14,656 bases of DNA from Pseudomonadota bacterium. GTDB lineage: Bacteria; Pseudomonadota; Gammaproteobacteria; Xanthomonadales; Rhodanobacteraceae. The translations under genes and the position numbers were made by a program. Under the pieces are notes generated by a model that searched no databases, was not told where the DNA came from, and saw nothing but the letters and a program-made list of their open reading frames with translations. Numbering within the stretch: position 1 is the stretch's first letter; every line of letters starts with the position of its first letter. Positions 1 through 14,656 of the stretch are shown piece after piece. Location: the NCBI GenBank assembly GCA_021783385.1, contig JAJXTX010000037.1:1-14656 (forward strand), given 5' to 3'.

Positions 1-179
1 TCGTGTGCGGCCACTGGTCGGCGCTGGGCCGCTTCGCCGGGCTCGGCGTGCATGCGATCGACACCGGTTGCGTGTGGGGCGGGCAGCTCACCGCGCTGCG
101 CCTGGATGGCGAGGAGCCGCAGTACATAGCGGTGCAGGCCGAAGCGCACCGCCAGCGACCGCCGGGTGTCGTGGATTGA
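1..179 (+). CDS. apaH: Bis(5'-nucleosyl)-tetraphosphatase (symmetrical), C-terminal fragment
   Basis: This is the last 58 codons of a gene that enters from the left edge; the frame begins at base 3 and the TGA stop is at 177-179. The visible peptide starts VCGHWSALG and continues with [18 protein letters not shown]. This matches the C-terminal end of ApaH, where the VCGHW histidine is a metal ligand of the metallophosphatase fold and the DTGCVWGG segment is strongly conserved. ApaH hydrolyses Ap4A symmetrically to two ADP in the cytoplasm and also removes Np4 caps from RNA. The tail after the conserved block ([14 protein letters not shown]) is short and unremarkable. It is convergent with the response-regulator gene. 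The usual partners ksgA and apaG would lie outside the window. The family call is firm; the catalytic N-terminal half cannot be seen. Confidence 0.88.
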
Positions 180-261: not shown

Positions 262-1623
262 CTACAGCCCGTAGCGCTTGAGCTTGTACCACAGCGCCCG
301 TTCGCTGATTTCCAGCAGGCGCGCCGCCGCCGCCTTGTTGTTGTCGCTGCGCGCCAGCGCCGCTTCGATGAGCCTCTTTTCCAGCGCGTCGACGTGCGTC
401 CGCAGCGATAGTGCTTCGGTGTCGGCAGGTGCGCAAGGCTCCCGCGCCGTCGCCGGCTGCTGCTCGCGCAGCATGTTTGCAGGAATGTGCTGCAGAGTGA
501 TCTCCTGCCCCTCGCTGAGCACTACCGCACGTTCCATCAGGTTTTCCAGCTCGCGCACATTGCCCGGCCAGCCATGCGCTTCGAGCCGCTCCAGCACCTG
601 CCGCGTCAGCCGCGGCGGCGGGCGGCCGAGTTCGCTGGCGTATTTGCCGAGGAAATGCTGCGCCAGCAGCGCGATGTCTTCGCGCCGGTCACGCAGAAGG
701 GGCACGTCGATGCGCACCACATTCAGCCGGAAATAGAGATCCTGGCGCAGCCGCCCCGATTCCACCGCATGCTGCAGATCCACGTTGGTGGCCGCCACGA
801 TCCGCAGATCGACCGGCATCGTCACGTTCGCTCCCAGCCGCTCGATGGTGCCCTCCTGCACCACGCGCAGCAGCTTGGCCTGCAGCGCCAGCGGCATCTC
901 GGTGATCTCGTCCAGGAAAATGGTGCCGCCGCTGGCCAGCTCGCATTTGCCCACGCGGCCGCGGGCGGCGCCGGTGAAGGCGCCCTTTTCGTGCCCGAAC
1001 AGTTCGCTCTCCAGCAGCTCGGCGGGAATCGCGGCACAGTTGATCGGCACAAACAATCCGCTGCGGCCGGAAGCGTGATGCAGGGCGCGCGCCACCAGTT
1101 CCTTGCCGGTACCGGTCTCGCCGACGATGAAAACGTTGCTGCGCGCCGGCGCCACCTGCTGCACCAGCCGATACAGCGCCTGCATTTTCTCGCTGACCCC
1201 GATGAACTCGCCCCAGCCCCGCGATACCTCATCGCGCAGGAAGCGGTTTTCGCGCTGCACCACGCTGACCGCGAGGGTGCGCGTCACCGCCAGCTCGATC
1301 GTCTCGATCTCGAACGGCCGGATGATGTAGTCCGACGCGCCGAGCCGCATCGCCTCTACCGCGGTCTCGATCGTGCCGTAAGCGGTCAGCACGATGACCG
1401 GCACTTCCTCGCCACGCTCACGCAGCTCGCGCAGCAGTTGCATGCCGTCCATCCGCGGCATGCGCAGATCGGTCAGCACCAGATCGAAACGGGTGGCATC
1501 GATGGCGGCCAGCGCCTCCACTCCGTCCGCGGCCTGCACCACCTCATGGCCCATGCTGCTGAGCGCGAACTCCAGGATGTGGCGCATCCTCGCCTCATTG
1601 TCGACCACCAGCATTCGCTTCAC
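262..1623 (-). CDS. Sigma-54-dependent response regulator, NtrC family
   Basis: A 453-residue bacterial enhancer-binding protein in standard order. The receiver domain (about residues 2-120) has phospho-acceptor Asp52 and Thr80. The AAA+ domain (about 140-380) has Walker A GETGTGKE at 168-175, the sigma-54 contact loop GAFTGA at 216-219 region (214-219), Walker B FLDE ending at Asp238-Glu239, and a WPGNVREL segment at 352-359. A C-terminal Fis-type helix-turn-helix covers about 428-453. It should bind upstream sites and use ATP to open sigma-54 promoters. Two receiver residues are unusual: the acidic pair reads Asp8-Asn9, and the conserved lysine of the KP motif is Arg102. I chose the GTG at 1623 because a GAGG box lies 5 bases upstream; GTG 1629 and ATG 1614 are alternatives. 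It lies 16 bases after the kinase gene and is surely co-transcribed with it. The likely target is the sigma-54 promoter at 12369-12384. Confidence 0.93.
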   Translation of the reverse strand: MKRMLVVDNEARMRHILEFALSSMGHEVVQAADGVEALAAIDATRFDLVLTDLRMPRMDGMQLLRELRERGEEVPVIVLTAYGTIETAVEAMRLGASDYIIRPFEIETIELAVTRTLAVSVVQRENRFLRDEVSRGWGEFIGVSEKMQALYRLVQQVAPARSNVFIVGETGTGKELVARALHHASGRSGLFVPINCAAIPAELLESELFGHEKGAFTGAARGRVGKCELASGGTIFLDEITEMPLALQAKLLRVVQEGTIERLGANVTMPVDLRIVAATNVDLQHAVESGRLRQDLYFRLNVVRIDVPLLRDRREDIALLAQHFLGKYASELGRPPPRLTRQVLERLEAHGWPGNVRELENLMERAVVLSEGQEITLQHIPANMLREQQPATAREPCAPADTEALSLRTHVDALEKRLIEAALARSDNNKAAAARLLEISERALWYKLKRYGL

Positions 1624-1628
1624 GTGCA

Positions 1629-1632
1629 CCTC
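1629..1632 (-). promoter_or_regulatory. Ribosome binding site deciding the regulator start
   Basis: GAGG on the minus strand, 5 bases before the GTG at 1623. It lies in the short gap after the kinase stop codon. This spacing favours GTG 1623 over GTG 1629 (which would overlap the box) and over ATG 1614 (14 bases away). Confidence 0.5.
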
Positions 1633-1639
1633 GCCAAAG

Positions 1640-3397
1640 CTATTTCATGTCAAGACGGATATTGAAGGCCGCGCCACCCCAGGGGCTGTCGGTAACGCTG
1701 ATATCGCCGCCGTGCGCCTGCACGATCTGCTGCACGATGGTCAGCCCCAGACCGATACCACCCTGACGGCGCGTGAAGAAGGGATCGAAGATGAGCTCGC
1801 GGATCGGCGGTGGAACGCCGGGGCCGTCGTCGGCCACGCAGAGCCATAGCGCGCCCGCTTCAAGGTAGGTGCTCACCGCGACCCTGCCGCCTGTGCTGAC
1901 AAACTCCAGCGCGTTCAGCACCAGATTGAGCAACACCTGCATCATCTGCTCGCGATCGCAGGCGAACACCACCTCCTGCGCCTCCAGATCCCGCTCCAGA
2001 TGCACGCCGGCGGCCTCCGCCCGTGACGCGATCAGGTTGAGCACGCTGTCGACGATGGCATGCACGTTCTGCGGGCGCACATCCGGCGACTTCGGCCGGG
2101 CGCACTCCAGCAACATGTTCACCAGCGGGTTGAGCCGCTCGGTCTCGCTCAGGATGAATCCGATCAGTTCGCGCTCCCGCTCACCGAGTGTCGTGTGGCG
2201 CGCCAGCAGCTGCGCCGAACTGCGCACGATGCTCATCGGCGTGCGGATCTCGTGCACCATCACCGCCGCCATCTCGCCCACCACCGCGAGCTTGCCGGCG
2301 CGCACCACCTGCTCGCGCGAGCGCTCCAGTGCCTGGATCATGTCGACGTAGGCGCGAAACAGCTCCGTCACCTCGGATATGGTGGTGACCGGCGCGCTCG
2401 GCAGGGTCTCGTCACCCTGGCGGAAACGCCGCGTGAATTCGGTCAGATCGACAATCGGTTTCGCGATCCGGCCGGCCAGTCGCGACGCCAGCCACAGCCC
2501 CAGCGCCAGCGTCAGCAACAGCAGCACCAGCATGCCCCACAGCATGCGCCACACCGGACGAAACGCCTCGCTGGTCGGCTCGATCATGAGAATGTGCCAG
2601 CCCAGCCCCTTGAACTGCTGGTATCCGCTGGAGGCAGCGGCGCCGACGAGCAGCGAACGGTAGCCGAGGGCGGCACCGTCATGGACATACGAGGTTGCGC
2701 CGACCGCGGGCACGACCCAGTGCAGCATCCGCTGATGGGGCAGATCCAGGCGTTCCCGCAGCGCGCTCGATGCGGCGATCACCCGGCCCTGCGCATCCAG
2801 CAGCAGCAGGTCGCGCGACCCGTCGGCGACCGCCTTGTCCAGCAGACCCTGCACGGCGCCCCAGCCCACCGTCAGATAGAGGGTGCCGATGTTGCCGCGC
2901 CCGAAGGCGTTGGGTATCAGCGTGCGCAGAACCACTGCTTCGCCGGTGCGCTGATAGGTGGTCGCGATGAAGACATCCTTCAGCCTTGAATCGGGCATCT
3001 GTTGCCAGGCGCGGATCGAGGGCGCCATTTTTCCGATCAGTGCACGATCAGTCGCGGCCACCACGCGGCCGGAAGTATCGGTGCACAGCAGGGTCTGGTA
3101 GATGTTGCCCTGGCCTGCCTGCAGCTCGGCGAGAAAGTTGGAAATGCGCTTGTCGACGTCGTTGACGCGGATGTCCTGCATCACCTGCAGGTTGCGCCAG
3201 ACCCGCATGCTTTCCATCTGCGTGAACAGAAACGTGTCGATACGCTCCTTCACCGCACCCGCGCCGAACTGGAGATTGTCGGCAATCTCCGACTGCAGGG
3301 CCCGGCGAAACTCGACAAACGACAGCACCCCCATCACCGTGATGGAGCCGAGCAGCATCCAGAAGAACGCGCGCAGCAGGGCCGAGCGAGCCGTCAC
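1640..3397 (-). CDS. Membrane sensor histidine kinase with periplasmic Cache-like domain and HAMP
   Basis: A 585-residue hybrid-free sensor kinase. A first membrane helix (about residues 7-28) and a second (about 283-308) enclose a periplasmic region of roughly 250 residues. That region looks like a double-Cache sensor (for example the LLCTDTSGRVVAATD and LLLDAQGRVIAAS segments). A HAMP linker follows at about 300-355. The dimerisation box carries His382 in VHEIRTPM. The ATPase domain has the N box (Asn495 in NLVLNALEF), the G1 box DDGPGVP at 523-529 and the G2 box GGIGLGL at 546-552, so it appears catalytically complete. The start is a GTG at 3397; the in-frame TAG at 3425-3427 rules out a longer protein. 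It is followed after 16 bases by its response regulator. I infer that it senses an extracytoplasmic ligand or envelope state and controls the glycan operon upstream. The ligand is unknown. Confidence 0.92.
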   Translation of the reverse strand: MTARSALLRAFFWMLLGSITVMGVLSFVEFRRALQSEIADNLQFGAGAVKERIDTFLFTQMESMRVWRNLQVMQDIRVNDVDKRISNFLAELQAGQGNIYQTLLCTDTSGRVVAATDRALIGKMAPSIRAWQQMPDSRLKDVFIATTYQRTGEAVVLRTLIPNAFGRGNIGTLYLTVGWGAVQGLLDKAVADGSRDLLLLDAQGRVIAASSALRERLDLPHQRMLHWVVPAVGATSYVHDGAALGYRSLLVGAAASSGYQQFKGLGWHILMIEPTSEAFRPVWRMLWGMLVLLLLTLALGLWLASRLAGRIAKPIVDLTEFTRRFRQGDETLPSAPVTTISEVTELFRAYVDMIQALERSREQVVRAGKLAVVGEMAAVMVHEIRTPMSIVRSSAQLLARHTTLGERERELIGFILSETERLNPLVNMLLECARPKSPDVRPQNVHAIVDSVLNLIASRAEAAGVHLERDLEAQEVVFACDREQMMQVLLNLVLNALEFVSTGGRVAVSTYLEAGALWLCVADDGPGVPPPIRELIFDPFFTRRQGGIGLGLTIVQQIVQAHGGDISVTDSPWGGAAFNIRLDMK

Positions 3398-3432
3398 GCC
3401 GCGGGTCCGCCGCTGGCAGCAGGGCTATTCAT

Positions 3433-3466
3433 GTGCACGACCTGATCAGCGCTGATTCTCGTGCAC
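3433..3466. repeat. 34-bp nested dyad just upstream of the kinase gene
   Basis: The outer arms GTGCACGA (3433-3440) and TCGTGCAC (3459-3466) are perfectly complementary. Between them sits a second perfect palindrome, ATCAGCGCTGAT (3445-3456). The inner edge lies 35 bases from the kinase GTG start. The symmetry suggests a binding site for a dimeric regulator. A transcript hairpin is the alternative, but there is no T-run after it. Confidence 0.55.
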
Positions 3467-3533
3467 ACCGCGAGGGATCCGATCCAGCCAATCGCTGCGG
3501 CCCTCAAGGTAGGGCCGTACGCGGCGGCGCGTG

Positions 3534-3548
3534 TGAACAATTTGTTCA
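3534..3548. repeat. 15-bp operator-like palindrome
   Basis: TGAACAA-T-TTGTTCA is a perfect 7-1-7 dyad and is AT-rich in an otherwise GC-rich region. It looks like a dimeric regulator operator. A related but differently spaced pair (AACAA and TTGTT, 4 bases apart) occurs next to the sigma-54 promoter at about 12390-12402. Confidence 0.45.
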
Positions 3549-3566
3549 ATCAGCACCGCCGGCCTT

Positions 3567-3600
3567 GCATGTCTGCAGCGACACGCGCCGTACGACATGC
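3567..3600. repeat. Inverted repeat downstream of the UDP-glucose dehydrogenase gene
   Basis: The arms GCATGTC (3567-3573) and GACATGC (3594-3600) are perfect complements separated by 20 bases. It starts 35 bases after the dehydrogenase stop. It could be a protein site or a weak hairpin; the long loop and lack of a T-run argue against a strong intrinsic terminator. Confidence 0.35.
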
Positions 3601-3634
3601 CGCAACCTTCCGCCGCACGGTAACCGCCACGGAA

Positions 3635-5010
<1,376 letters not shown>

Positions 5011-5026
<16 letters not shown>

Positions 5027-5649
5027 GGTTGTTGCTCCGGGAGTTGGGTTGAAAGGCTGATGTTTCCGTGGCGCCGGCGCAGCGTCAGCGCATGCAGCGA
5101 GCCGGTGGCCACGCTGACTTGCCGAAACATGCAAAGCGACATCCCGGCCGCTTCCAGCAGGGCGATGCGAATCGGTCCGGCGTGGCTGACGATCAACACA
5201 CCGCCGCCGTCGTGCACAGCCCACCTCGGATCCCGCAGAAACTGCTGCAGGCGCTGGCGCACGGCGGCGAGACTCTCGCCACCCGGCAACGCCGCGGTGT
5301 CCGGCGCTCGCTTCCACTGGCGCAGCTGATCCGGCCAGCACGCGCGCACCTCGGCCTGGGTCAGCCCCTCCCACGCGCCGTAGGCCAGCTCGATCAGCCT
5401 CGAATCGACCCGTGGGGCGTCCAGCCCCAGCGTGGCGGCGACGATCTCGGCGGTCTCGCGGGCGCGGCGCAGCGGGCTGCTCAGAATCGAGCGCACGCCC
5501 TGCCCGCGTGCGCGCATGCCGATCTGCACCGCCTGCGCGCGGCCCTCGTCGATCAGCGGGGGATCGCAGCGGCCTTGATAGCGCCCGCTGCGGCTCCACT
5601 CGGTCTGCCCGTGGCGCACCAGCAGCAGCGGAATGATCGCATCCGTCAT
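5011..5649 (-). CDS. Histidine phosphatase family protein (phosphoglycerate mutase-like)
   Basis: A 212-residue cytoplasmic protein without signal peptide or membrane segment. The RHG signature LLVRHGQTEW places the phospho-accepting His13 near the N-terminus. The SSPLRRARETA segment gives the phosphate-binding arginine near residue 62, the acid residue is Glu88 in IELAYGAWEG, and the second histidine is His156 in IVSHAGPIR. The family includes cofactor-dependent phosphoglycerate mutase, alpha-ribazole phosphatase and the LPS heptose phosphatase Ais/PmrG. Sequence alone does not tell the substrate. Its place inside a glycan operon makes a sugar-phosphate or glycan-phosphate substrate more likely than glycolysis or cobalamin. 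A TTG at 5658 overlapping the upstream stop is an alternative start three codons earlier; neither start has a clear ribosome binding site, so translational coupling is likely. Confidence 0.88.
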
Positions 5650-5654
5650 GGCGA

Positions 5655-6512
5655 TCAATAGTGCACGGCAACGCCGAGGACGATGCGCCGGCCGGCGTGG
5701 ATGCCCTTGCCGGCGAGCGAGTCCTGGTAGCCGATGTACGGTCGAAACTGGCGCAAGCGCCCCGTCGGCAGATACTCCAGTTTCGCGCCCACGCGAAGCA
5801 GGTTGTAGATTTCGCCGCGGTCGCCCACAGCCACCATCTGCTGACGCTGCAGCGTGCGCACGTAGAACACCGAGCCGCTGACCCGGAATCGCGGCGTCAC
5901 CCGGTAGCCGAGCGAGATCGAGCTGCGCAGTTGCACGGCGGCACCGTCAAGAAACACGCGTGGGCCGGCCACCAGCGTCGCAAACATCGCGCCGCGGGCG
6001 ATGCCCACCTGATAGTCCGGTTCGATCGCGGCCTTGCCTGTGCCCAGCGCCGGCGACGGGCTGGTCGAGCCGGTCGGGAAGACCGCGTTGAGGGTGACCG
6101 AGTCGGCAAAGGACCTGGTCTGGCGCAGCCCGTAGTTCAAACCGATCACCTGGTCTTCCAGGCCGCTGGCGCGGCTGGTGACCTGCTGGCCGGCGTGATG
6201 GCGGGCTTCCTGCACGGCGCCGCCGCGCAGGTCGTACTCGATCGAGAGGCCGTGGCCGATGCCCTGCGAACCGGTGATGCGCAGTTGCGTCTCCCGCTGC
6301 TGCGAGGACGGATAGGTGCGGCTGCCGAAATGCGTCTTCGAAAATGCGTGGTTGGCGCTGAAGTAGCGCAGCATCGGATCGACGACGCCGTGACCCGCGG
6401 CCGGGATCCACGGATCGGCGTGAGCCGGTCGCGTGCTGACGGCGAACAGCACCAGCACGCAGGCGCAGGACAGCAGACACGTGGTACGGGCAGCCTTGCC
6501 GGCAGCGGTCAT
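5655..6512 (-). CDS. Outer-membrane beta-barrel protein, transporter-like
   Basis: A 285-residue exported protein. The N-terminus has a Lys/Arg region, a hydrophobic stretch (about residues 12-26) and an AHA site, so cleavage is expected after Ala32. The rest is alternating polar and hydrophobic strands, such as QLRITGSQGIGHGLSIEYDLRGGAV and RVSGSVFYVRTL. It ends in a terminal tyrosine (VLGVAVHY), the usual signal for outer-membrane assembly. It resembles the MetA-type outer-membrane transporter group, but I would not assign a substrate. The LLSC at 13-16 looks like a lipobox by chance; hydrophobic residues continue after it, so a lipoprotein is unlikely. Its ATG overlaps the ABC exporter stop (ATGA). 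Embedded in a glycan synthesis and export operon, it may be the outer-membrane partner for the product, or may simply help anchor or sense it. Confidence 0.75.
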   Translation of the reverse strand: MTAAGKAARTTCLLSCACVLVLFAVSTRPAHADPWIPAAGHGVVDPMLRYFSANHAFSKTHFGSRTYPSSQQRETQLRITGSQGIGHGLSIEYDLRGGAVQEARHHAGQQVTSRASGLEDQVIGLNYGLRQTRSFADSVTLNAVFPTGSTSPSPALGTGKAAIEPDYQVGIARGAMFATLVAGPRVFLDGAAVQLRSSISLGYRVTPRFRVSGSVFYVRTLQRQQMVAVGDRGEIYNLLRVGAKLEYLPTGRLRQFRPYIGYQDSLAGKGIHAGRRIVLGVAVHY

Positions 6513-8323
6513 GGAGCGACCATCCGGAGTTTCGGAGAAGGTGTGTCGTCACGCAATGCCTGCCACAGGCTGGCGTACAGGCCGCCCGTTGCCAGCAACT
6601 GCGCATGGGTACCGCGCTGGACGATGCGTCCACGCTCCAGCACCAGGATCAGGTCGGCATTCATCACCGTCGAGAGCCGGTGCGCGATCACCAGGGCCGC
6701 ACGTCGCGAGGCCAGCCGCGCCAGCGCCAGCATCAGCTCGCGCTCGGTGCGCGCATCGAGGCTGCTGCTGGGCTCATCCAGAATCACCACCGGCGCATCG
6801 CACAGCATCGCCCGTGCAATTGCGATGCACTGCCGCTGCCCGCCGGAGAGGCTGAGCCCGCGCTCGCTGACCATGCCGTCGTAGCCGCCAGGCAACTGCT
6901 CGATCAATTGATCGACGCCGACCTCGCGCGCTGCGCGCACCGCATCCGCGCGCTGGGCACCCTCGCGACCGTAGGCGATGTTTTCCCAGATCGTTGCCTG
7001 GAACAGCGCGGGCTCCTGCAGCACCATGGCCACCTGCCGGCGCAGATAGCCCAGCGGCAGGCTGCGCAGGTCGCGATCATCCAGCCATATCGATCCGGCG
7101 GTGGGATCGTAGAAGCGCGGAATCAGGCTGGCGATGGTGCTTTTTCCCGCGCCCGTGGGGCCGACCAGCGCGATCGTCTTGCCGGCCTCCAGCACGAAGC
7201 TGATGTCCTGCAGGATGGCCTGGTCGGGCCGGTAGCCGAAACCGACTGCCGCGAATTCGAGCCGCTGCGCACGCACGGCCGGCGTGACGGCGCCCGGCGG
7301 GTCGACCACGGTGGGCGTTTCGGCGCGGTATTCGCCGATCCGCTCCAGTGCCACGCCGGCACGGCCGATCACCCGGCCGGTCTTCGCCAGCTGGCGGGCG
7401 GGCGTGGCGATGCCGCGCAGATACGCCAGGAAAATCAGCAGATCGCCCGGCGTCAGCGCACCACGGATCACGCTGGCCGCGCCGTACCAGATGATCGCCC
7501 CGGTGGCGACCGCGATCACCAGGTTCATGCTGGGGCCGTAGCGCGCCTGCACGTTGTTGGCATGCAGGCTGGCGGAGAGGCTCTTGCTGGCATGCTCGCT
7601 GAAGCGATCATCCTCGTGCGACTCGCGCGCGAACGCCTGCACCACCTGCACGCTGGCGAGGATTTCCTGCGTCACGCCCCACAGCGTTCCTTCATGGTTT
7701 CGCACCTCGCGCAGCGCCTGCCGCAGCCGCTGCGAGTAGAAGCGCGCGATGTAGAACAGCACCGGCGCGATCGCCAGCGCGATCAGCGCGTAGCGCCAGT
7801 CGATCACGAACATCACGCAGGCCATGCCCACGATGGTCAGCGCATGCGGCAGCAGATCGATGCCGACGGCGGCGACGAAATCCTGCAGCTGCTTCACATC
7901 GCCACTGAGCCGCGACATCAGTTCGCCGCCGCGATGGCGGCGATGGAATTCCAGCGACAGCCGCTGCAGGTGGGCGAACAGGTCGAAGCGGATGGCGAAC
8001 ACCACGCGCTGTCCGGCATCGAGAAAGAGCCGGTTGCCGAGATAGACCAGCAAGGCATCGGCGGCACCCAGGCCCAGCATGACCAGCGCCAGCAGATCCA
8101 GCAGCGGCATGCGCTGTTGCGCGATCTGCGGCAGCATGGCGTGCAGCCAGCCCGGCAGCGGCCGGCCAAAGATCACGTTGTCGATGGTGTATTTGAGCGG
8201 CCACGGCAGCAGCAGCAGCACTCCCGCCCGCACGCTCATCACCAGCGCGCCGGCGGACAGCGCTTTCCATTCCGGCCACAGATAGTCGAGCAGCCACGCG
8301 TGCGGGCGCGCGCGCCGCGCCAT
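6509..8323 (-). CDS. ABC exporter half-transporter, MsbA/PglK-like lipid or glycolipid flippase
   Basis: A 604-residue fused membrane-ATPase subunit that should work as a homodimer in the inner membrane. The transmembrane domain spans about 20-310, with clear helices near 22-45, 74-97, 158-196 and 265-300. The nucleotide-binding domain follows: Walker A GPTGAGKST at 388-396, Q-loop Gln436, signature LSGGQ at 492-496, Walker B VVILDE at 512-517 and switch His548. All key residues are present. There is no C39 peptidase domain, so it is not a bacteriocin exporter. Family members flip lipid A (MsbA), lipid-linked oligosaccharides (PglK) or drugs; between three glycosyltransferases and a UDP-glucuronate enzyme, a glycolipid cargo is the best inference. 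I took the ATG at 8323, which overlaps the upstream stop (TGATG) and has GGTGG 7 bases upstream; ATG 8344 would add seven residues. Confidence 0.9.
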   Translation of the reverse strand: MARRARPHAWLLDYLWPEWKALSAGALVMSVRAGVLLLLPWPLKYTIDNVIFGRPLPGWLHAMLPQIAQQRMPLLDLLALVMLGLGAADALLVYLGNRLFLDAGQRVVFAIRFDLFAHLQRLSLEFHRRHRGGELMSRLSGDVKQLQDFVAAVGIDLLPHALTIVGMACVMFVIDWRYALIALAIAPVLFYIARFYSQRLRQALREVRNHEGTLWGVTQEILASVQVVQAFARESHEDDRFSEHASKSLSASLHANNVQARYGPSMNLVIAVATGAIIWYGAASVIRGALTPGDLLIFLAYLRGIATPARQLAKTGRVIGRAGVALERIGEYRAETPTVVDPPGAVTPAVRAQRLEFAAVGFGYRPDQAILQDISFVLEAGKTIALVGPTGAGKSTIASLIPRFYDPTAGSIWLDDRDLRSLPLGYLRRQVAMVLQEPALFQATIWENIAYGREGAQRADAVRAAREVGVDQLIEQLPGGYDGMVSERGLSLSGGQRQCIAIARAMLCDAPVVILDEPSSSLDARTERELMLALARLASRRAALVIAHRLSTVMNADLILVLERGRIVQRGTHAQLLATGGLYASLWQALRDDTPSPKLRMVAP

Positions 8324-9576
8324 CACTGCGCCACCGCCCGGCATACTGTTGGCGCCCGCGCCAGTGACAGCGCCTGTTCGACCACGTGCGCCCAGCTGTG
8401 GCTGGCCGCCGCGAGCTCGGCGGCACGTCCCATCTGACGGCGATGATCGGGCGCATCGATCAGCTCCAGCAGCGCCTGCGCGCAGGCGACCGGATCACCC
8501 GGCATGTATAGCCGTCCGGTGGCCTGATCCTGGATCAACTCGGCGATCTGGCCGATCCGCGGCGCCACAACCGGGCAGCCGGCAGCCATCGACTCGATGA
8601 TTTTCAGCGGCGAGAAATAGAAATCCGGATCCGGCAGGTAGGGCGCAACGCTCACGTCCATCGCATCGAGCCAGGCCGGAATCTCGGCGTGCGGCACCCG
8701 CCCAGGCAGGGTGACCTGACGCTCCAGGCCCCACTCGGCGACGCGGCTGCGGATGGTCTCCAGTTCCGGGCCGTCACCGACGGCGAGCAGCCGCAGCTCG
8801 GGCCGGATCTCCACCAGCGCCCGGAACACTTCGAGCAGAAACATCATGCCGTGCCAGGGTTTGAAGCTGCCGACGAAACCCAGCACCGGACTGCCGCCCA
8901 GCCCCAGCTGCGCGCGCAGGGCGCTGCCGCCCTGGTGTTTGCCGAAGCGCGCCAGATCCACCCCGTTGGGCAAGACGTGCACCGCCTGCTGGCTGCCGAG
9001 GATGTGCCCGACATGCTCGGCCACCGCGGCGGACACCGCCACGATCGCATCGGCTCCGCGGTAGGACTCCACTTCCGCCACGCGCGACTCGCGCTCCAGC
9101 CGCAGCCCGCGAAAGCGCCGCTGCTCCTCGACCAGCGGTGCATTCACCTCGAGCAGGCGCGGCACGCCGAGTCGCCGTGCCACGCGCACGCCGGCCCGGT
9201 GCAGCAGAGCGTGACGCTCGTACACGAGATCGGGTCGGAAGCCGGTGCCGGCGAGATGGGTCAGCACACGCGCAGAGAACGTGCGGTCATAGGCCAGCCG
9301 CGAGATTTCGCGGCGCAAGGCCAGATCGGACAGCGCGGACACCGGCAACCCCAATTCGATGCACGCCGCATGCAGGTCGGCATCGGTGACGCTGTATTCG
9401 ATGCAGGCGATCCGCGCCGGCGGCGGCGGATTGCCGCTGCCGAGCGTGGCGCAGGCCAGCAACACGTCATGACCGAGTTCGGTCGCGGCCGTGACGAATT
9501 CGCGCACATGCACCGAGGCGCCCTTGTCACCGAGTACCGGAATGCCACGATCGGGATTCATGTAGAGGATTTTCAT
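8323..9576 (-). CDS. Glycosyltransferase, GT4 type (first of two)
   Basis: A 417-residue GT-B fold enzyme. The N-terminal domain begins MKILYMNPDRGIPVLGDKGASVHV, with the glycine-rich acceptor-side loop of GT4 enzymes. The C-terminal donor domain has LGFVGSFKPWHG at 232-243, AVGDGPE at 265-271, and the donor-sugar block FYFSPLKIIESMAAG near 319-333. In that block the first glutamate of the usual EX7E pair is Tyr320 and the second is Glu328; the FYFSPLK form is seen in other GT4 enzymes, so I do not read it as inactivation. The ATG at 9576 overlaps the upstream stop (ATGA) and has GAGGT about 8 bases upstream. It should transfer a sugar from a nucleotide donor to a growing cytoplasmic-face glycan. 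Donor and acceptor are not predictable. Confidence 0.87.
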   Translation of the reverse strand: MKILYMNPDRGIPVLGDKGASVHVREFVTAATELGHDVLLACATLGSGNPPPPARIACIEYSVTDADLHAACIELGLPVSALSDLALRREISRLAYDRTFSARVLTHLAGTGFRPDLVYERHALLHRAGVRVARRLGVPRLLEVNAPLVEEQRRFRGLRLERESRVAEVESYRGADAIVAVSAAVAEHVGHILGSQQAVHVLPNGVDLARFGKHQGGSALRAQLGLGGSPVLGFVGSFKPWHGMMFLLEVFRALVEIRPELRLLAVGDGPELETIRSRVAEWGLERQVTLPGRVPHAEIPAWLDAMDVSVAPYLPDPDFYFSPLKIIESMAAGCPVVAPRIGQIAELIQDQATGRLYMPGDPVACAQALLELIDAPDHRRQMGRAAELAAASHSWAHVVEQALSLARAPTVCRAVAQ

Positions 9577-10892
9577 GAGGCGACCTCGACGTTGGTCGTT
9601 GGGTATTCGGCGGCGGCGGGGGGTGTCTGGTCGCTGACTTCGCTGCACTCATGGCATTCGATCAGCGCGTGCAGGCGGCGCGTGGTGGTCCACAGATCGA
9701 AGTCCTGCTCCAACCGCGCGCGCGCCGCGCGCGCCAGCTGCGCCGCCGCGTGCGGGTCGGCCAGCAGCCGGCCCAGCGCATCGGCCATGGCGCTCGGGTC
9801 ATTCGGCGGCGCCAGCAGTCCGGTGTGTCCGTGCTGAACCAGCTCCGGTATGCCGGACACATCCGTCGACACGACAGGGATGCCGATCGCCATCGCTTCG
9901 GCGATGACATTCGGAATGCCGTCGCGATCGCCATCGTCGGCAATGCGTGGCGCCAGCGCGAACAGATCGGCGTGGCGGTACAGCGCGATGAGCTTCGAAT
10001 GCGTCATCGCACCCTCCAGCGTCACCCTGTCCTGCAGCTGCAGCTGCGCGATCTGCGTCGCGAGGACGCCGCGCAGCGGGCCCTCACCGACGATCATGCA
10101 GCGGAAGGAGTGACCGCGCTCGCGCAGCAGCGCACAGGCCGTGATCAGATCATCGTGACCCTTCTTCTCCACCAGCCGGCCCACGGAAAGTATCAGCCGG
10201 GGCTGTGCCTGCGCAGTGGGCTGCGGCGCTTCACGCACACCGAACTGCGACAGGTCGATGCCGTGATAGACCAGATGCACCTTGCCGGCATCGGCACCGA
10301 GCAGATCCTGCAGGTAGCGGGCGTTGTAGCCGGTGCAGGTGGCGACAAAGGTGGCCGCGCGCGCGCGCCGCTGGATCACGCGCGGCGGGGTCAGGTACAG
10401 ATCCTTGGCATGCGCGGTGAAGCTGAAGGGAATGCCGGACATCAGGCTGGCGAAGCGCGCCGTCGCCGCTGGCGCATTGGCGAAATGCGCGTGGATGTGG
10501 CGGATCCCCGCATGGCGGCAAGTGCTTGCCACATAGCCGCCGCGACCGAACTGCTTCCATACCGACAGCGGGGTGGGCGAAAGGGCGGACCAGAGCATCG
10601 CTCGCAACACCGCGCCCGCATAGCGCAGCGGTGAAGCGGCCAGCATGCGGCCGTGCACGCGGGCAAGACTGGCCCACTTGGCGCGACCTTGCGGTGGCAG
10701 CGAATGGATCGGCGCGACCACTTCGCTCACCATCGGGTGATGCGGCGGCAGCTCCGGCGGCAGCAGCGAAAAGATGTGCAGCTGCGCGCCCAGCCGCTCC
10801 ATCGCGCGGATCTCGTTGAGGATGAAGGTCTCGGTCAGGCGCGGATAACGCTTCATCACGTAGGCAATCGGTCCCGCCGCAGGGTCGATCAT
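9573..10892 (-). CDS. Glycosyltransferase, GT4 type (second), colanic-acid WcaL-like
   Basis: A 439-residue GT-B enzyme. The start AYVMKRYPRLTETFILNEIRAMERLG is typical of the WcaL-like GT4 group in exopolysaccharide and glycolipid clusters. HIHAHFANAPA at 132-142 and FTAHAKDLY at 158-166 lie in the N-terminal domain. LILSVGRLVEKKGHDDLI at 233-250 and IVGEGPL at 267-273 begin the donor domain, and DGIPNVIAEAMAIGIPVV at 324-341 is the donor-sugar block, with Asp324 and Glu332 in the EX7E positions. About 30 residues after the fold (from HECSEV) look disordered. The ATG at 10892 overlaps the previous stop (ATGA) and has GGAG 8 bases upstream. It acts in the cytoplasm or at the inner-membrane face. 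Donor and acceptor are unknown. Confidence 0.87.
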   Translation of the reverse strand: MIDPAAGPIAYVMKRYPRLTETFILNEIRAMERLGAQLHIFSLLPPELPPHHPMVSEVVAPIHSLPPQGRAKWASLARVHGRMLAASPLRYAGAVLRAMLWSALSPTPLSVWKQFGRGGYVASTCRHAGIRHIHAHFANAPAATARFASLMSGIPFSFTAHAKDLYLTPPRVIQRRARAATFVATCTGYNARYLQDLLGADAGKVHLVYHGIDLSQFGVREAPQPTAQAQPRLILSVGRLVEKKGHDDLITACALLRERGHSFRCMIVGEGPLRGVLATQIAQLQLQDRVTLEGAMTHSKLIALYRHADLFALAPRIADDGDRDGIPNVIAEAMAIGIPVVSTDVSGIPELVQHGHTGLLAPPNDPSAMADALGRLLADPHAAAQLARAARARLEQDFDLWTTTRRLHALIECHECSEVSDQTPPAAAEYPTTNVEVAS

Positions 10893-12331
10893 GCCCGGCG
10901 CTCCAGCGGGGTCGCCGTCGCGCAGGAGCTTTCGAGCAGATACTGCGCGACCCGCTCGGCGCCGTTCAGGTCGATCACCGCACTGGCGGACTCCAGCAGC
11001 GGCGGCGCGGTCAGCGCGGCGGGAATCAGCGCCGCGAGTTTCTGCACCAGATCCGCGTCGGGCTCGACGCTCCAGACGGCACCCAGTTTCGCCAGCAGAC
11101 CGGCGCGCATGCGCTGCTCGGCCCGCGGTGCGGCGCGCGGTACCAGTATGGCGCGCTTGCGCAAGGCCATGATTTCGGCGCTGGTGTTGTATCCCGCCAT
11201 CGCCACCACCAGATCGGCCGCGCGCAGGCTCGGCACCAGATCGGTCGTGTAATCCACCAGCTCGACATCCGGCCGGCCCGCTGCACGCTGGCGCAAGGCA
11301 TCGCTCTCGTCACCGGGCATCAGCGGCCCGGTGACAACCACCGAATGCACGCTGCCCCATGGCAGATGCGCGAGTGCCCGCAGGTAGGCGTCCATCAGGA
11401 AGAAGCCGTCGCCACCGCCGCCAGCGGTGACCAGCACCACCGGACGTCCCTGCGGGCGCTCCGGATTCCAGCAAGGCTGCGTCTGCTCCGCGCCGGCGGG
11501 CCGAGCGTGCGCCGCGGGCGCCGCCACAACGTGTCCGCAATAGCGTACGCGCGCGCCGAGCGAGGGCGACATGCCATACCCTTCGACCACATCGAACAGC
11601 GCCCGGCTGCCATAGACGAAAATATCGTCATAGGCCTGCTCCAGCAGCGGATAGATTTCCTGCTCGCGCCACAGCTTTTGCACGGTGGCCGGGCTGTCGA
11701 GGATATCGCGCAGGCCAATGATGGTCCGCGTCTGGGGAAGCTCCCGGCGAATCAGCGCCAGCGTCGAAAGCAGTTCTCCGTTCATGCCGGCGGGGGCATG
11801 ATCGACCAGGAACACATCCGGCCGGTAGCGCAGGATGGTCTTGAGAATCAGCGCTTCGCGGTATCCCTTGACCATCCCGAACAGCTGATCGCCATCGCGC
11901 GCGGCGTACTGCTCGGCACCGGTTTTTACCACCGGTGGCAGCGGTTGAACCCGCAGGCCAGGCGGAAGATTCCACTGCTGGATGACCGGCGAACCGGTCA
12001 GCAGTCGAACCGAAAATCTCCCTTCGCACTCCAGCAGGCGTGTGGCGATGGCGAGGTTGCGACGCAGATGTCCCAGGCCGAACGTGTCATGCGAATACAG
12101 CACCACTTTCACGCTGCCGCCGGATCGGTCGGCCCGCGCAGCGTATGTCTGCCTGCGTTCATCGGCGGCGCTGTCGGCATGCTCCGGTTTGCTCACCTGG
12201 ATCATCCGGCGCGACGGCGCAGCGATCTCGGTCGACGTGCGCAGCAGGCTGTGGGTCGGAGTGGACACGCGCAGCGACACGCCTTCCACCACGCACGTAT
12301 CGGCGCCGAAACTTGTTGCATGACCAGGCAT
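10889..12331 (-). CDS. MurG-like predicted glycosyltransferase (COG4671 type), first gene of the operon
   Basis: A 480-residue protein. The recognisable fold begins at about residue 74 with VKVVLYSHDTFGLGHLRRNLAIA, the hallmark of the COG4671 predicted glycosyltransferases. The C-terminal half has VLVTAGGGGDGFFLMDAYL at 299-317 and AMAGYNTSAEIMALRKRAILVPR at 377-399, which resemble the UDP-sugar-binding domain of MurG and GT28 enzymes. It probably transfers a sugar from a UDP donor; UDP-glucuronate from the last gene of the operon is a natural candidate but unproven. The first 73 residues are polar and Ser/Thr-rich and match nothing I know. The ATG at 12331 has a good GGAG box 6 bases upstream, so I keep it; GTG 12112 directly before the fold and ATG 12205 are alternatives. 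Transcription is expected from the sigma-54 promoter 38 bases upstream. Confidence 0.82.
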   Translation of the reverse strand: MPGHATSFGADTCVVEGVSLRVSTPTHSLLRTSTEIAAPSRRMIQVSKPEHADSAADERRQTYAARADRSGGSVKVVLYSHDTFGLGHLRRNLAIATRLLECEGRFSVRLLTGSPVIQQWNLPPGLRVQPLPPVVKTGAEQYAARDGDQLFGMVKGYREALILKTILRYRPDVFLVDHAPAGMNGELLSTLALIRRELPQTRTIIGLRDILDSPATVQKLWREQEIYPLLEQAYDDIFVYGSRALFDVVEGYGMSPSLGARVRYCGHVVAAPAAHARPAGAEQTQPCWNPERPQGRPVVLVTAGGGGDGFFLMDAYLRALAHLPWGSVHSVVVTGPLMPGDESDALRQRAAGRPDVELVDYTTDLVPSLRAADLVVAMAGYNTSAEIMALRKRAILVPRAAPRAEQRMRAGLLAKLGAVWSVEPDADLVQKLAALIPAALTAPPLLESASAVIDLNGAERVAQYLLESSCATATPLERRA

Positions 12332-12337
12332 GTGACG

Positions 12338-12341
12338 CTCC
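12338..12341 (-). promoter_or_regulatory. Ribosome binding site for the first operon gene
   Basis: GGAG on the minus strand, 6 bases before the ATG at 12331. It supports the long N-terminal form of the MurG-like protein over the internal starts at 12205 and 12112, which lack an equally good box. Confidence 0.55.
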
Positions 12342-12368
12342 GCGAAAGGTGGCTGACCCTACGCCTGG

Positions 12369-12384
12369 AGCGATATTCGTGCCA
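12369..12384 (-). promoter_or_regulatory. Sigma-54 (RpoN) promoter of the glycan operon
   Basis: The minus strand reads TGGCACGAATATCGCT. The sigma-54 consensus is TGGCACG, four free bases, then TTGC and A/T. Every fixed position matches except one (C for the second T of the -12 element). The invariant GG (12382-12383) and GC (12370-12371) are 10 bases apart, as required. Transcription should begin near 12358, giving a leader of about 27 bases with the GGAG box in it. It needs an enhancer-binding activator; one is encoded at 262-1623. Confidence 0.85.
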
Positions 12385-12393
12385 ATCGAACAA

Positions 12394-12412
12394 ATGCTTG
12401 TTTTTCAAGCAT
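12394..12412. repeat. Inverted repeat directly upstream of the sigma-54 promoter
   Basis: ATGCTTG and CAAGCAT form a perfect 7-bp dyad around five T/A bases. It is centred about 45 bases before the predicted transcription start, in an AT-rich patch. It could be an operator for a second regulator or shape the DNA bend. It is too close to the promoter for a typical enhancer. Confidence 0.5.
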
Positions 12413-12451: not shown

Positions 12452-12477
12452 TTGCAGGGTGCAGGGTTTGTCTGCAA
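12452..12477. promoter_or_regulatory. Candidate enhancer site 1 (inverted repeat)
   Basis: TTGCAG (12452-12457) and CTGCAA (12472-12477) are perfect complements with 14 bases between. The centre is about 106 bases upstream of the predicted sigma-54 start, in the range where NtrC-type activators bind. It also contains a tandem 7-base repeat, GCAGGGT twice (12454-12467). That the encoded regulator binds here is inference. Confidence 0.4.
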
Positions 12478-12529: not shown

Positions 12530-13045
12530 TCAGTGCGTCGCGCGATCCGGACACGCTCCGGCCGGCTGCAAGGATGACGCTGCAGGGAGCGTAAGCAGCA
12601 GCACGGCATGGACATCCGCGGTGACGAAGCACGGTTTCACGTAGCCGATGGCGCCGGGCGTCTTGGCCACGAATTCCACCACGGCCGCCTCGGACCCGAG
12701 CACGTAAGGGGGACTGACGCCCTGGAAGTACTGCTGATTCCAATAGTTCTGCAATCGCAATTCGCTCATGCCGATGGCAGCGCGGGAAAAGGCCTGCCGC
12801 AGCCTGCTGTCCGGCGGCAGATTGACCGGAATATAGGCATGCCCCTGCGGGTCGACAAAGATCTTCTTCAGATAGATGTTGCGCAGCATCCCGGGATCGA
12901 TCGCCTGCGCGTCGTGTGCATGGCTCGAAACGATGACCGCGATCTTCGATTCACCCGCCGGTGCAGCCTTTGCGTAACGCGCGAAGGTGCCCGCGACGAC
13001 GAGGACGCCAAGCACAACCAGTCGGCGGCTGGATAGTGACGGCAT
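12530..13045 (-). CDS. Small PstS-like periplasmic substrate-binding protein
   Basis: A 171-residue exported protein. Residues 1-27 form a signal peptide (SRRLVVLGVLVVAGTFARYAKA, cleavage probably after AKA). The mature part shows the short phosphate-binding-protein-like domain: AVIVSSHAHDAQAIDPGMLRNIYLKKIFVDPQGHAYIPVN, then RQAFSRAAIG, an NYWNQQYFQG block near 100-109, and KTPGAIGYV at 128-136. Single-domain PstS-like proteins of about 150 residues are common in proteobacteria, often without any Pst permease. No permease or ATPase is nearby. The C-terminal 20 residues (SSLQPAGACPDRATH) look disordered. It starts 3 bases after the porin stop and has no ribosome binding site of its own, so it is coupled to the porin. 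The ligand may be phosphate or another anion; a sensory role is possible. Confidence 0.75.
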   Translation of the reverse strand: MPSLSSRRLVVLGVLVVAGTFARYAKAAPAGESKIAVIVSSHAHDAQAIDPGMLRNIYLKKIFVDPQGHAYIPVNLPPDSRLRQAFSRAAIGMSELRLQNYWNQQYFQGVSPPYVLGSEAAVVEFVAKTPGAIGYVKPCFVTADVHAVLLLTLPAASSLQPAGACPDRATH

Positions 13046-13048
13046 GAT

Positions 13049-14158
13049 TCAGAACAGCACGCCGATCGAGGCCAGCACGCCGTTCGGCGCCAGCGCGGCA
13101 TTGTTGTTTCCATCACGGTATTCGAGCTTGAGCGAGAGGCCGGATTCGGGCCGGTAGTCGATGCCGAATGTCCTCAGGGTCACCCACTGGCTGGGCAGCG
13201 AATTCCGGTACCGCTCATAGCGTCCCACGGCATACAGGTGCCGCGGCAGCGGAACAACCGCCTGCACATACCCACCGTATTCATCCGGAACCTGGGGGCT
13301 GTCCGCCGTGCGCCAGATGCCCTCGCCGCTGAATTCGACGTGGCGGCCTGACCATCCGAAGTCGATGCCGGTGAGCCGGTACTGCTGCTGCGGATTTTTC
13401 AGGGCATAGCGGACGTACGACGCGCCCAGGCTCAGACGGTCGTCCAGCATGTGATAGAGAAATTGGCCGCCGATGGCATGCTGAAAGTCGTTCCTCAGCG
13501 TGCTGCTGGCGCCATAGTCGGTGAATGCCAGATTGTGGCTGCGGGTGAAGGCGAGCGCTTTGCTGTCATCCGCGAACAGCCAGTAATCGAGATCGTTGTG
13601 CATGAGGCTGACGGTGCCGTACAGCATGGCGCCGCTGGCATGGCGCGAGAAGCTGCCCGTGGTGGTCAGCGGGCGCGACACCGTCCATACGAGGGGGTCG
13701 GCATGCACCAGATTCCACTGCCCCACCGGGGTCAGGAACTTGCCGAAGCGCAGCGTGATGCCGCTGCGGGTGTGATAGTCGGCGTAGAGCCGCTCGACAT
13801 CGATATTGGCATCCTTGGTGGTGGCGTGCTGGCTGTCGATGACCAGCGCGTCGCCGAGTTCGGTTTCGCTGAAGAGCTTCCAGTGGGTGCCGATATCCCT
13901 GGACAGAAACAGGCTGAGGTCCTCGACGCTGAGCGCCGCGCGGTGTTTGTCGAGGCTGTAGAAGTGAATGTCGGCATAGCCGCCGACCCGCAACGACTGT
14001 TGCGGGAAATAGAGCCCCTGGCCCAGCTGGTAGGGCTGGGCTTGCCAGGATCCGTCCGCCGCGGCGGCACCTGCGGGCAGAATCCACGCCAGTACCGCAG
14101 CCAATCCCCACACCAGCAAATCGGCGTGATGCCGGTATCTGCGCCTCGGGTTGCTCAT
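13049..14158 (-). CDS. Outer-membrane porin-like beta-barrel protein
   Basis: A 369-residue protein. A basic N-terminus (MSNPRRRYRHH) and a hydrophobic stretch (about 14-28) lead to a signal cleavage site near Ala33-Ala34 (AGAAAADG). The mature part is a run of amphipathic strands, for example LRVGGYADIHFYSL, GITLRFGKFLTPVGQWN and LSLKLEYRDG. It ends in a terminal phenylalanine (ASIGVLF), the outer-membrane assembly signal. RFGKFLTPVG and the strand pattern resemble OprO/OprP-like and related porins, but the specificity loop cannot be judged. Together with the PstS-like gene 3 bases downstream it forms a two-gene uptake-like unit. A weak sigma-70-type promoter is suggested at 14188-14216. There is no clear ribosome binding site before the ATG. 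Confidence 0.78.
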   Translation of the reverse strand: MSNPRRRYRHHADLLVWGLAAVLAWILPAGAAAADGSWQAQPYQLGQGLYFPQQSLRVGGYADIHFYSLDKHRAALSVEDLSLFLSRDIGTHWKLFSETELGDALVIDSQHATTKDANIDVERLYADYHTRSGITLRFGKFLTPVGQWNLVHADPLVWTVSRPLTTTGSFSRHASGAMLYGTVSLMHNDLDYWLFADDSKALAFTRSHNLAFTDYGASSTLRNDFQHAIGGQFLYHMLDDRLSLGASYVRYALKNPQQQYRLTGIDFGWSGRHVEFSGEGIWRTADSPQVPDEYGGYVQAVVPLPRHLYAVGRYERYRNSLPSQWVTLRTFGIDYRPESGLSLKLEYRDGNNNAALAPNGVLASIGVLF

Positions 14159-14411: not shown

Positions 14412-14656
14412 TCAGGCCAGTTGGCCGTGGCAGTGCTTGTACTTCTTGCCGGAGCCGCACGGGCACAGCTCGTTGCGGCCGACCTTGGGAGCGTCGCTCG
14501 GCACCGATCGCGGGAGTGCGGCACCGGCAATCGCCGCCGGCGGGGCGCTGCCGAAGGCGTCCACCGGCGCACCGCCGCCGGTGGCCAGCATCTGCTTCTG
14601 CAGGCGCTCGGCCATGCGCATCTGCTCGGCCTCCATCGCGGCGACTTCCTCCTCGC
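14412..14656 (-). CDS. secA: Preprotein translocase ATPase SecA, C-terminal fragment
   Basis: The last 81 codons of a gene that continues past the right edge. The visible part begins [22 protein letters not shown] and ends with the SEC-C zinc motif, [21 protein letters not shown]. The pattern Cys-x-Cys-x8-Cys-His is the zinc ligand set that in SecA binds SecB and phospholipid. The linker between them is Ala/Gly/Pro-rich, as in other SecA tails. SecA drives protein export through SecYEG. Other proteins such as YchJ/YecA also carry SEC-C motifs, but the preceding helical charged segment, the linker and the terminal position fit SecA best. The motor domains are outside the window. Confidence 0.85.

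Follow-up and report, generated by a model that had tools for sequence, protein, structure and literature searches.

Which promoter and which regulator control a glycan operon that lies next to a sensor kinase and a sigma-54 activator, and does that regulatory unit belong to the operon? We addressed this question on contig C257 of a Rhodanobacteraceae genome assembly (2.83 Mb, 377 contigs, 79.8% complete), a stretch of 14,656 nucleotides that is referred to here as the window and whose closest named relative, judged by the first gene of the operon, is Rhodanobacter. It is likely that a glycan operon has here been coupled to a portable sigma-54 switch, the switch being constant and its cargo exchanged. 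The switch is made up of four genes, encoding a dCache-like histidine kinase (HK), an NtrC-type response regulator (RR), a PstS-like protein (Pst) and a porin (Por), together with one control region behind Pst.

A probable sigma-54 switch beside a glycan operon

The elements of the switch and of the operon are as follows.

262..1629, − strand: RR, sigma-54-activating response regulator (Pfam REC, Sigma54_activat (AAA+) and Fis-type helix-turn-helix (HTH))
1640..3397, − strand: HK, membrane sensor histidine kinase (dCache-like extracytoplasmic domain, HAMP, HisKA and HATPase, by Pfam)
3635..5026, − strand: UGD, UDP-glucose/GDP-mannose dehydrogenase family protein (Pfam; TIGR03026 428.7 bits, cut-off 189.8)
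5011..5649, − strand: histidine phosphatase superfamily (branch 1) protein (Pfam PF00300)
5655..6512, − strand: putative outer-membrane β-barrel of the Phenol_MetA_deg family, a possible export channel (Pfam PF13557 24.8 bits, cut-off 22; order kept in many loci)
6509..8344, − strand: MsbA-like fused ABC exporter (Pfam; best NCBIfam models TIGR02204 and TIGR02203, both below cut-off)
8323..9576, − strand: GTc, GT4-type glycosyltransferase (Pfam)
9573..10892, − strand: GTb, GT4-type glycosyltransferase (Pfam)
10889..12331, − strand: GTa, glycosyltransferase with a GT28-type C-terminal domain, the first gene of the operon (Pfam PF04101)
12385-12369, − strand: sigma-54 −24/−12 promoter element, TTGGCACGAATATCGCT (12 of 13 specified consensus positions, GG/GC intact)
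12452-12477, − strand: predicted enhancer to which the activator would bind, an inverted repeat of the form TTGCAG-N14-CTGCAA (scored at 31.0 bits by a matrix built from loci carrying other operons)
12530..13045, − strand: Pst, short PstS-like periplasmic protein of 171 aa, conserved switch partner (Foldseek to PstS structures, best E 1.9e-6; conserved beside HK)
13049..14158, − strand: Por, porin-like outer-membrane protein, conserved switch partner (Porin_O_P 18.5 bits, below the cut-off of 20.9; conserved beside HK)

As transcribed from the − strand, the order is the end of a presumed secA gene, Por, Pst, a 198-bp gap, GTa, GTb, GTc, the exporter, the β-barrel, the phosphatase, UGD, a 237-bp gap, HK and RR. 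A first-pass annotation, made from the letters of the window, had proposed a sigma-54 promoter, a seven-gene operon at 12331-3635, HK at 3397-1640 and RR at 1629-262, and site matching and Pfam located every one of them. The starts of UGD, GTc and the phosphatase most likely need correction, to 5026 (ATG), 9576 (ATG) and 5649, respectively. That annotation missed the Por/Pst pair (12530-14158), the enhancer, the occurrence of the switch without the glycan operon and the fact that the operon is one of several outputs.

RR has the domain set of NtrC-type sigma-54 response regulators, with REC, AAA+ carrying a GAFTGA loop at residue 216, and Fis-type HTH, and its receiver Asp is present; it shares 53-98% identity with 24 other aligned switch regulators, near-copies included. 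Activators of such architecture bind an upstream enhancer, hydrolyse ATP and remodel the sigma-54 polymerase. HK carries a HEIRTP box, and its dCache and HAMP matches both fall below their cut-offs (20 bits against 45, and 23.5 against 25). The AlphaFold model of HK is of modest confidence (pLDDT 68.9), and its strands and helices agree with a dCache region of two lobes. A fold search returned sensor kinases, matched mostly through the kinase core among the best 50 of 787 hits, and comparison of the HK sensor profile with solved structures gave a single chance-level match (E 0.47). An extracytoplasmic sensing role of HK would fit this domain layout.

The predicted fold of Pst resembles part of the PstS phosphate-binding receptor and matches PstS structures, but Pst is about half the length of PstS proteins and no transporter genes for it are among the genes of the window. 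The PBP_like_2 profile was reached at E 0.01 by one of 20 Pst family members. From the strict co-occurrence of Por and Pst with HK, our guess is that the two bring a ligand to the kinase.

In the circuit that we propose, HK would sense an envelope signal or a solute, perhaps brought to it by Por and Pst, and would phosphorylate RR, which would bind TTGCAG-N14-CTGCAA at 12452-12477 and open the sigma-54 polymerase at 12385-12369. GTa to UGD would then be transcribed, and a glycan or glycolipid, perhaps with glucuronate, would be made and exported. The gene for the sigma factor, rpoN, is present in the genome.

The promoter was described earlier as the only strong sigma-54 site of the window, and this holds, since the second-best site matches 10 of 13 positions. 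As a sole argument the site was rejected, an equally good site (12/13) being found in 19 of 300 dinucleotide shuffles of the window; a looser pattern with up to two mismatches gave 8 sites against 8.8 expected. It is the position of TTGGCACGAATATCGCT and its conservation across loci that make it significant. Upstream of GTa, a 12/13 site was found in seven of nine loci labelled RR-positive and in none of the 72 others. This tally covers 81 of 83 loci (L027 had no anchor and L061 was too short); it counts L085, whose genome G077 has HK and RR on another contig (L127), as RR-negative, and it scores L005 at 11 through a site other than the aligned one. L060, a 3.4-kb Acidithiobacillus contig, has an 11/13 site without a known switch. 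At the glycan loci, switch and promoter thus accompany each other; the switch is also present without the glycan operon, in 13 of 97 Rhodanobacteraceae genomes.

Two minor features lie between enhancer and promoter. A perfect small inverted repeat, TGCTTG-AAAAA-CAAGCA (− strand), occupies window positions 12395-12411 and is not kept in L084 or L004, and sequences resembling sites of integration host factor were seen by eye in some relatives.

The same switch and control region at other operons

The HK sensor profile (E up to 1e-20) matched 15 of the 97 sampled Rhodanobacteraceae genomes, the 13 already mentioned being those that lack GTa. All 13 loci with other operons were fetched; without exception HK-RR and Por-Pst are divergent, and a sigma-54 site matching 11-12 of 13 positions starts 115-168 bp past the end of the Pst match. 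The kinases of these loci are about 60-62% identical to HK of the window. Behind the switch, nine of the 13 have a T_hemolysin-family gene with an AMP-ligase and a short-chain dehydrogenase/reductase, and eight of these nine also have a TPR protein and a gene labelled TenA-like by eye. The other four combine a GT9 gene with one of asparagine-synthase type, and three of them also have a PMT-type gene. In the window, the glycan operon stands between the Por-Pst and HK-RR pairs. HK and RR likewise accompany the glycan operon in the Rhodanobacter-type loci and in L036, L043 (Sulfuriferula multivorans), L053 and L056, and in the last three HK-RR is divergent from Por, Pst and the operon. In L138, the T_hemolysin-family reading is in two short pieces (7641-7796) and is perhaps decayed.

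In a class-wide sample, in which up to six candidates per genome were scored, the HK sensor was found in at least 10 of 369 genomes, our own included. HK and RR lie beside Por in all nine other loci, and Pst is there too in eight; the contig of the ninth ends at that point. A T_hemolysin-family match stands behind Pst in four of the nine, one of them weak (L147, 60 bits). In L149 (7325-6186), the sigma-54 site behind Pst (12/13) is followed by a gene in which a CxxCH haem motif was seen by eye and which may be a further output.

Alignment of the control regions of the family loci revealed TTGCAG-N14-CTGCAA, or close forms of it, 80-93 bp before the −24 element. In the window this distance is 92 bp from enhancer start to the start of the −24 element, which leaves 66 bp between enhancer and promoter. 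A matrix was built from 11 of the 13 loci with other operons, L137 and L140 being left out as near-copies of L136; among the training sites, that of L128 is possibly misaligned with the others. Trained in this way on loci with different cargo, the matrix gave 31.0 bits at 12477-12452 and so pointed to the promoter of the glycan operon. The next site in the window scored 11.1 bits, and the best competing scores were 17.9 bits in 1.14 Mb of control glycan loci (71 of the 73 fetched RR-negative loci, L054 and L055 not included) and 20.8 bits in 200 shuffled windows. Five other Rhodanobacteraceae-type glycan loci scored 20-32 bits, with 91-92 bp to the −24 element. With nothing comparable elsewhere in the window, these results support the earlier proposal of a cassette that carries its own sigma-54 switch.

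Across the 79.8%-complete genome, the perfect repeat occurs at 12452-12477 only. With one mismatch it occurs in four further places, namely the near-identical copy on C258 and three others, and a reversed control pattern occurs three times per strand. A longer enhancer core, with at most one mismatch, was found on C257 and C258 only. Two observations concern other possible sites. The gap between UGD and HK (3398-3634) holds a weak enhancer-like site at 3531, the 11.1-bit site mentioned above, with 14.3 bits at the matching place in L004; both scores are within the control range, and autoregulation is possible. In L144 (7386) and L150 (6497), an enhancer-like or sigma-54-like site lies directly behind the activator gene, which suggests that some lineages have a further target on the downstream side of RR.

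Since the same control region stands before other operons in relatives, the cargo would have been exchanged behind a constant switch. We lean towards a modular control cassette, in which a four-gene sensor unit and a fixed enhancer and sigma-54 landing site behind Pst have been combined in evolution with unrelated, exchanged operons for a surface glycan, T_hemolysin/AMP-ligase or GT9/Asn-synthase products. If so, one envelope signal could be wired to different surface or secreted products. Sigma-54 two-component circuits beside their own target are already known; what is new here is that one circuit recurs with its promoter placed before different operons. A switch with varied operons would be a natural experiment in regulatory rewiring, and it raises the question of which signal merits coupling to each product.

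Joining of switch and operon, and the insertion site

In a tree of the kinases of 32 loci, the glycan-bearing switches fall in two places, and a single clade was rejected (approximately unbiased (AU) test, p 8.9e-9). The GT9/Asn-synthase type forms one side of a supported branch. A tree of the exporters of 65 loci required five changes of switch presence, three of them forced by starred branches, and three changes with 21 short-flank loci set aside; L061 and others are labelled switch-free in this tree despite short contigs. Both trees have long branches and call for caution. Taken together, the two trees suggest more than one joining of switch and operon.

The borders of the window point to the place of insertion.

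3..179, + strand: left flank, 3′ end of a gene that we take to be apaH, the island border; it adjoins secA in relatives without the island there
14412..14654, − strand: right flank, 3′ end of a gene that we take to be secA, the island border

The secA loci of 11 of 44 relatives were examined. In ten of these 11 genus relatives, secA and apaH are close convergent neighbours without the island between them, and in the eleventh Por follows secA. One of the ten, G132, carries switch and operon on another contig, so that the insertion place varies between genomes. In the same bin as the window, the entire region is found once more on contig C258 (L084, 1-14630), between the same flanking genes and with proteins 84-97% identical. 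A third, partial secA match lies on C356 (query residues 1-41, 100% identity). A true duplication was judged less likely, given the same region, the same flanks and the third secA piece; C257 and C258 most likely represent two strains in one bin. An Rfam scan of the window gave no RNA family at gathering scores.

Several results weigh against a constant switch with exchanged cargo. The T_hemolysin type needs six changes on the kinase tree, and the AU test shares the pull of the long branches of that tree. Among the eight wider-class loci with Pst, the best site within 470 bp after Pst matches 11-12 of 13 positions in three, 10 in two and 9 in one; in L145 and L152 no site of at least 9/13 was found in this interval. 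At the aligned position, G077/L085 (11/13), L005 (10/13) and L006 (9/13) have a weaker sigma-54 element. In the distant glycan loci L036, L043, L053 and L056, the enhancer matrix gave nothing above controls; similar TTGC/GCAA blocks were seen there by eye alone, and the motif has drifted or differs. Finally, the genome is an incomplete metagenome-assembled genome (MAG), and further targets of the activator may exist.

Alternative explanations and related systems

The alternative that survives best is that the operon is only partly under sigma-54 control, basal expression coming from read-through of Por-Pst or from internal promoters and the switch merely boosting it. Pst, read in the same direction, stops 198 bp short of GTa, and no terminator-like site on the − strand was found between them. 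However, GTa to UGD overlap or nearly touch, and a conserved leader directly follows the promoter (GGAGCG before the GTa start, common to L005, L006 and L036), an arrangement that suits one start. The window has a single sigma-70-like site, within Pst (12858-12830), against 1.5 expected by chance. We regard partial control as unlikely, though worth keeping in view.

A second alternative accepts the sigma-54 promoter as real but has it driven by a different enhancer-binding protein, with the linked HK/RR controlling something else; we hold it to be improbable. Candidates are available, in that the genome has nine Sigma54_activat matches above 200 bits; of these, C257 and C258 each contribute their copy of the switch, and the matches on C13 and C334 look like one gene counted twice, which leaves about six other activators. 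Against such a driver, the enhancer-promoter unit stands behind Pst in loci that have the same switch but another operon, and no other place in the 79.8%-complete genome has the perfect repeat. We give very little credence to the view that the likeness of the control regions reflects shared descent of neighbouring DNA rather than function: the Rhodanobacteraceae switches are related, as the kinase identities indicate, but enhancer and −24/−12 element are kept while the rest of the gap between Pst and operon differs strongly by eye.

The nearest described system is PrsK/PrsR of PEP-CTERM/exosortase loci. According to the accessible part of PMC1569441, its kinase and NtrC-type activator are usually encoded close to polysaccharide genes, and an enhancer motif precedes the sigma-54 promoter by about 60 bp. 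The window shares this plan: its sigma-54 activator adjoins glycosyltransferase genes and matches TIGR02915 at 405.6 bits, two glycosyltransferases match stp-family profiles below cut-offs, and the motif-spacer-promoter layout is similar (66 bp here, against a mean of 62.8 in that part of the paper). The regulator score, the enhancer and the absence of an exosortase differ, and the system of the window is therefore, as far as its sequence tells, not PrsK/PrsR. The TIGR02915 score is below the cut-off of 502.6 and ranks fourth after the AtoC, NtrC and LuxO models, and PrsK is not among the 25 listed of 81 families that match HK. As had been noted for the locus, no exosortase gene is present, and a search of the 79.8%-complete genome (EpsH, PF09721) found none either. 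By eye, against the available text of PMC1569441, the enhancers differ as well: TTTACA closes the published motif, whereas the window has TTGCAG-N14-CTGCAA. RpoN1 in one tested strain controls a PEP-CTERM gene and seemingly not exopolysaccharide genes, as far as the available part of PMC9850573 goes. The window switch further differs in carrying porin and PstS-like genes and in standing before whole operons of several kinds. The profile cut-offs, the outcome of the exosortase search and the sequence of the enhancer led us to reject an origin as a reduced PrsK/PrsR locus that has lost its exosortase, which we consider extremely improbable.

AtoSC, ZraSR and NtrC-type systems have roles in metabolism or metal stress and, to our knowledge, lack a porin/PstS-like pair. 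They have the same domain layout of kinase and activator, and AtoS and AtoC are the best profile matches, but the equivalog cut-offs are missed (AtoC 483.9 against 714, NtrC 423.5 against 558.6, AtoS 190.2 against 646). In Burkholderia cenocepacia H111, NtrC and sigma-54 control exopolysaccharide in the nitrogen response, according to the accessible part of PMC5491218. A sigma-54 activator over exopolysaccharide is also what we predict here; in contrast to that nitrogen response, the window would hold a dedicated, linked and portable switch.

Among the titles and beginnings of abstracts listed from open-licence PMC, no description of this switch or glycan operon turned up. The accessible part of PMC12194929, on sigma-54 in Acidithiobacillia, contains neither 'polysaccharide' nor 'glycosyltransferase', and that of PMC4886054 has nothing on this cluster. 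The glycan operon is of a type common in acidophiles. A GTa profile scan with one genome per species kept at least 80 loci, and the order GTa-GTb-GTc-ABC is found in most listed loci with enough contig, the β-barrel, phosphatase and UGD often following in varying order. Fourteen of the 80 listed loci bear the names of the acid-loving genera Acidiphilium (3), Acidocella (6) and Acidithiobacillus (5), and many others are MAGs without a genus name. GTa is rare in Rhodanobacteraceae, with two of 97 sampled genomes and four of 45 in a genus sample, our own included in both. The window offers a candidate regulator and a predicted binding site for a glycan operon common to many acid-loving bacteria. 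In several of the alphaproteobacterial, actinobacterial and chloroflexi loci L045, L049-L052, L057 and L069-L080, another, distantly similar kinase/regulator pair lies near the glycan operon, as if the operon were coupled to different switches in these lineages.

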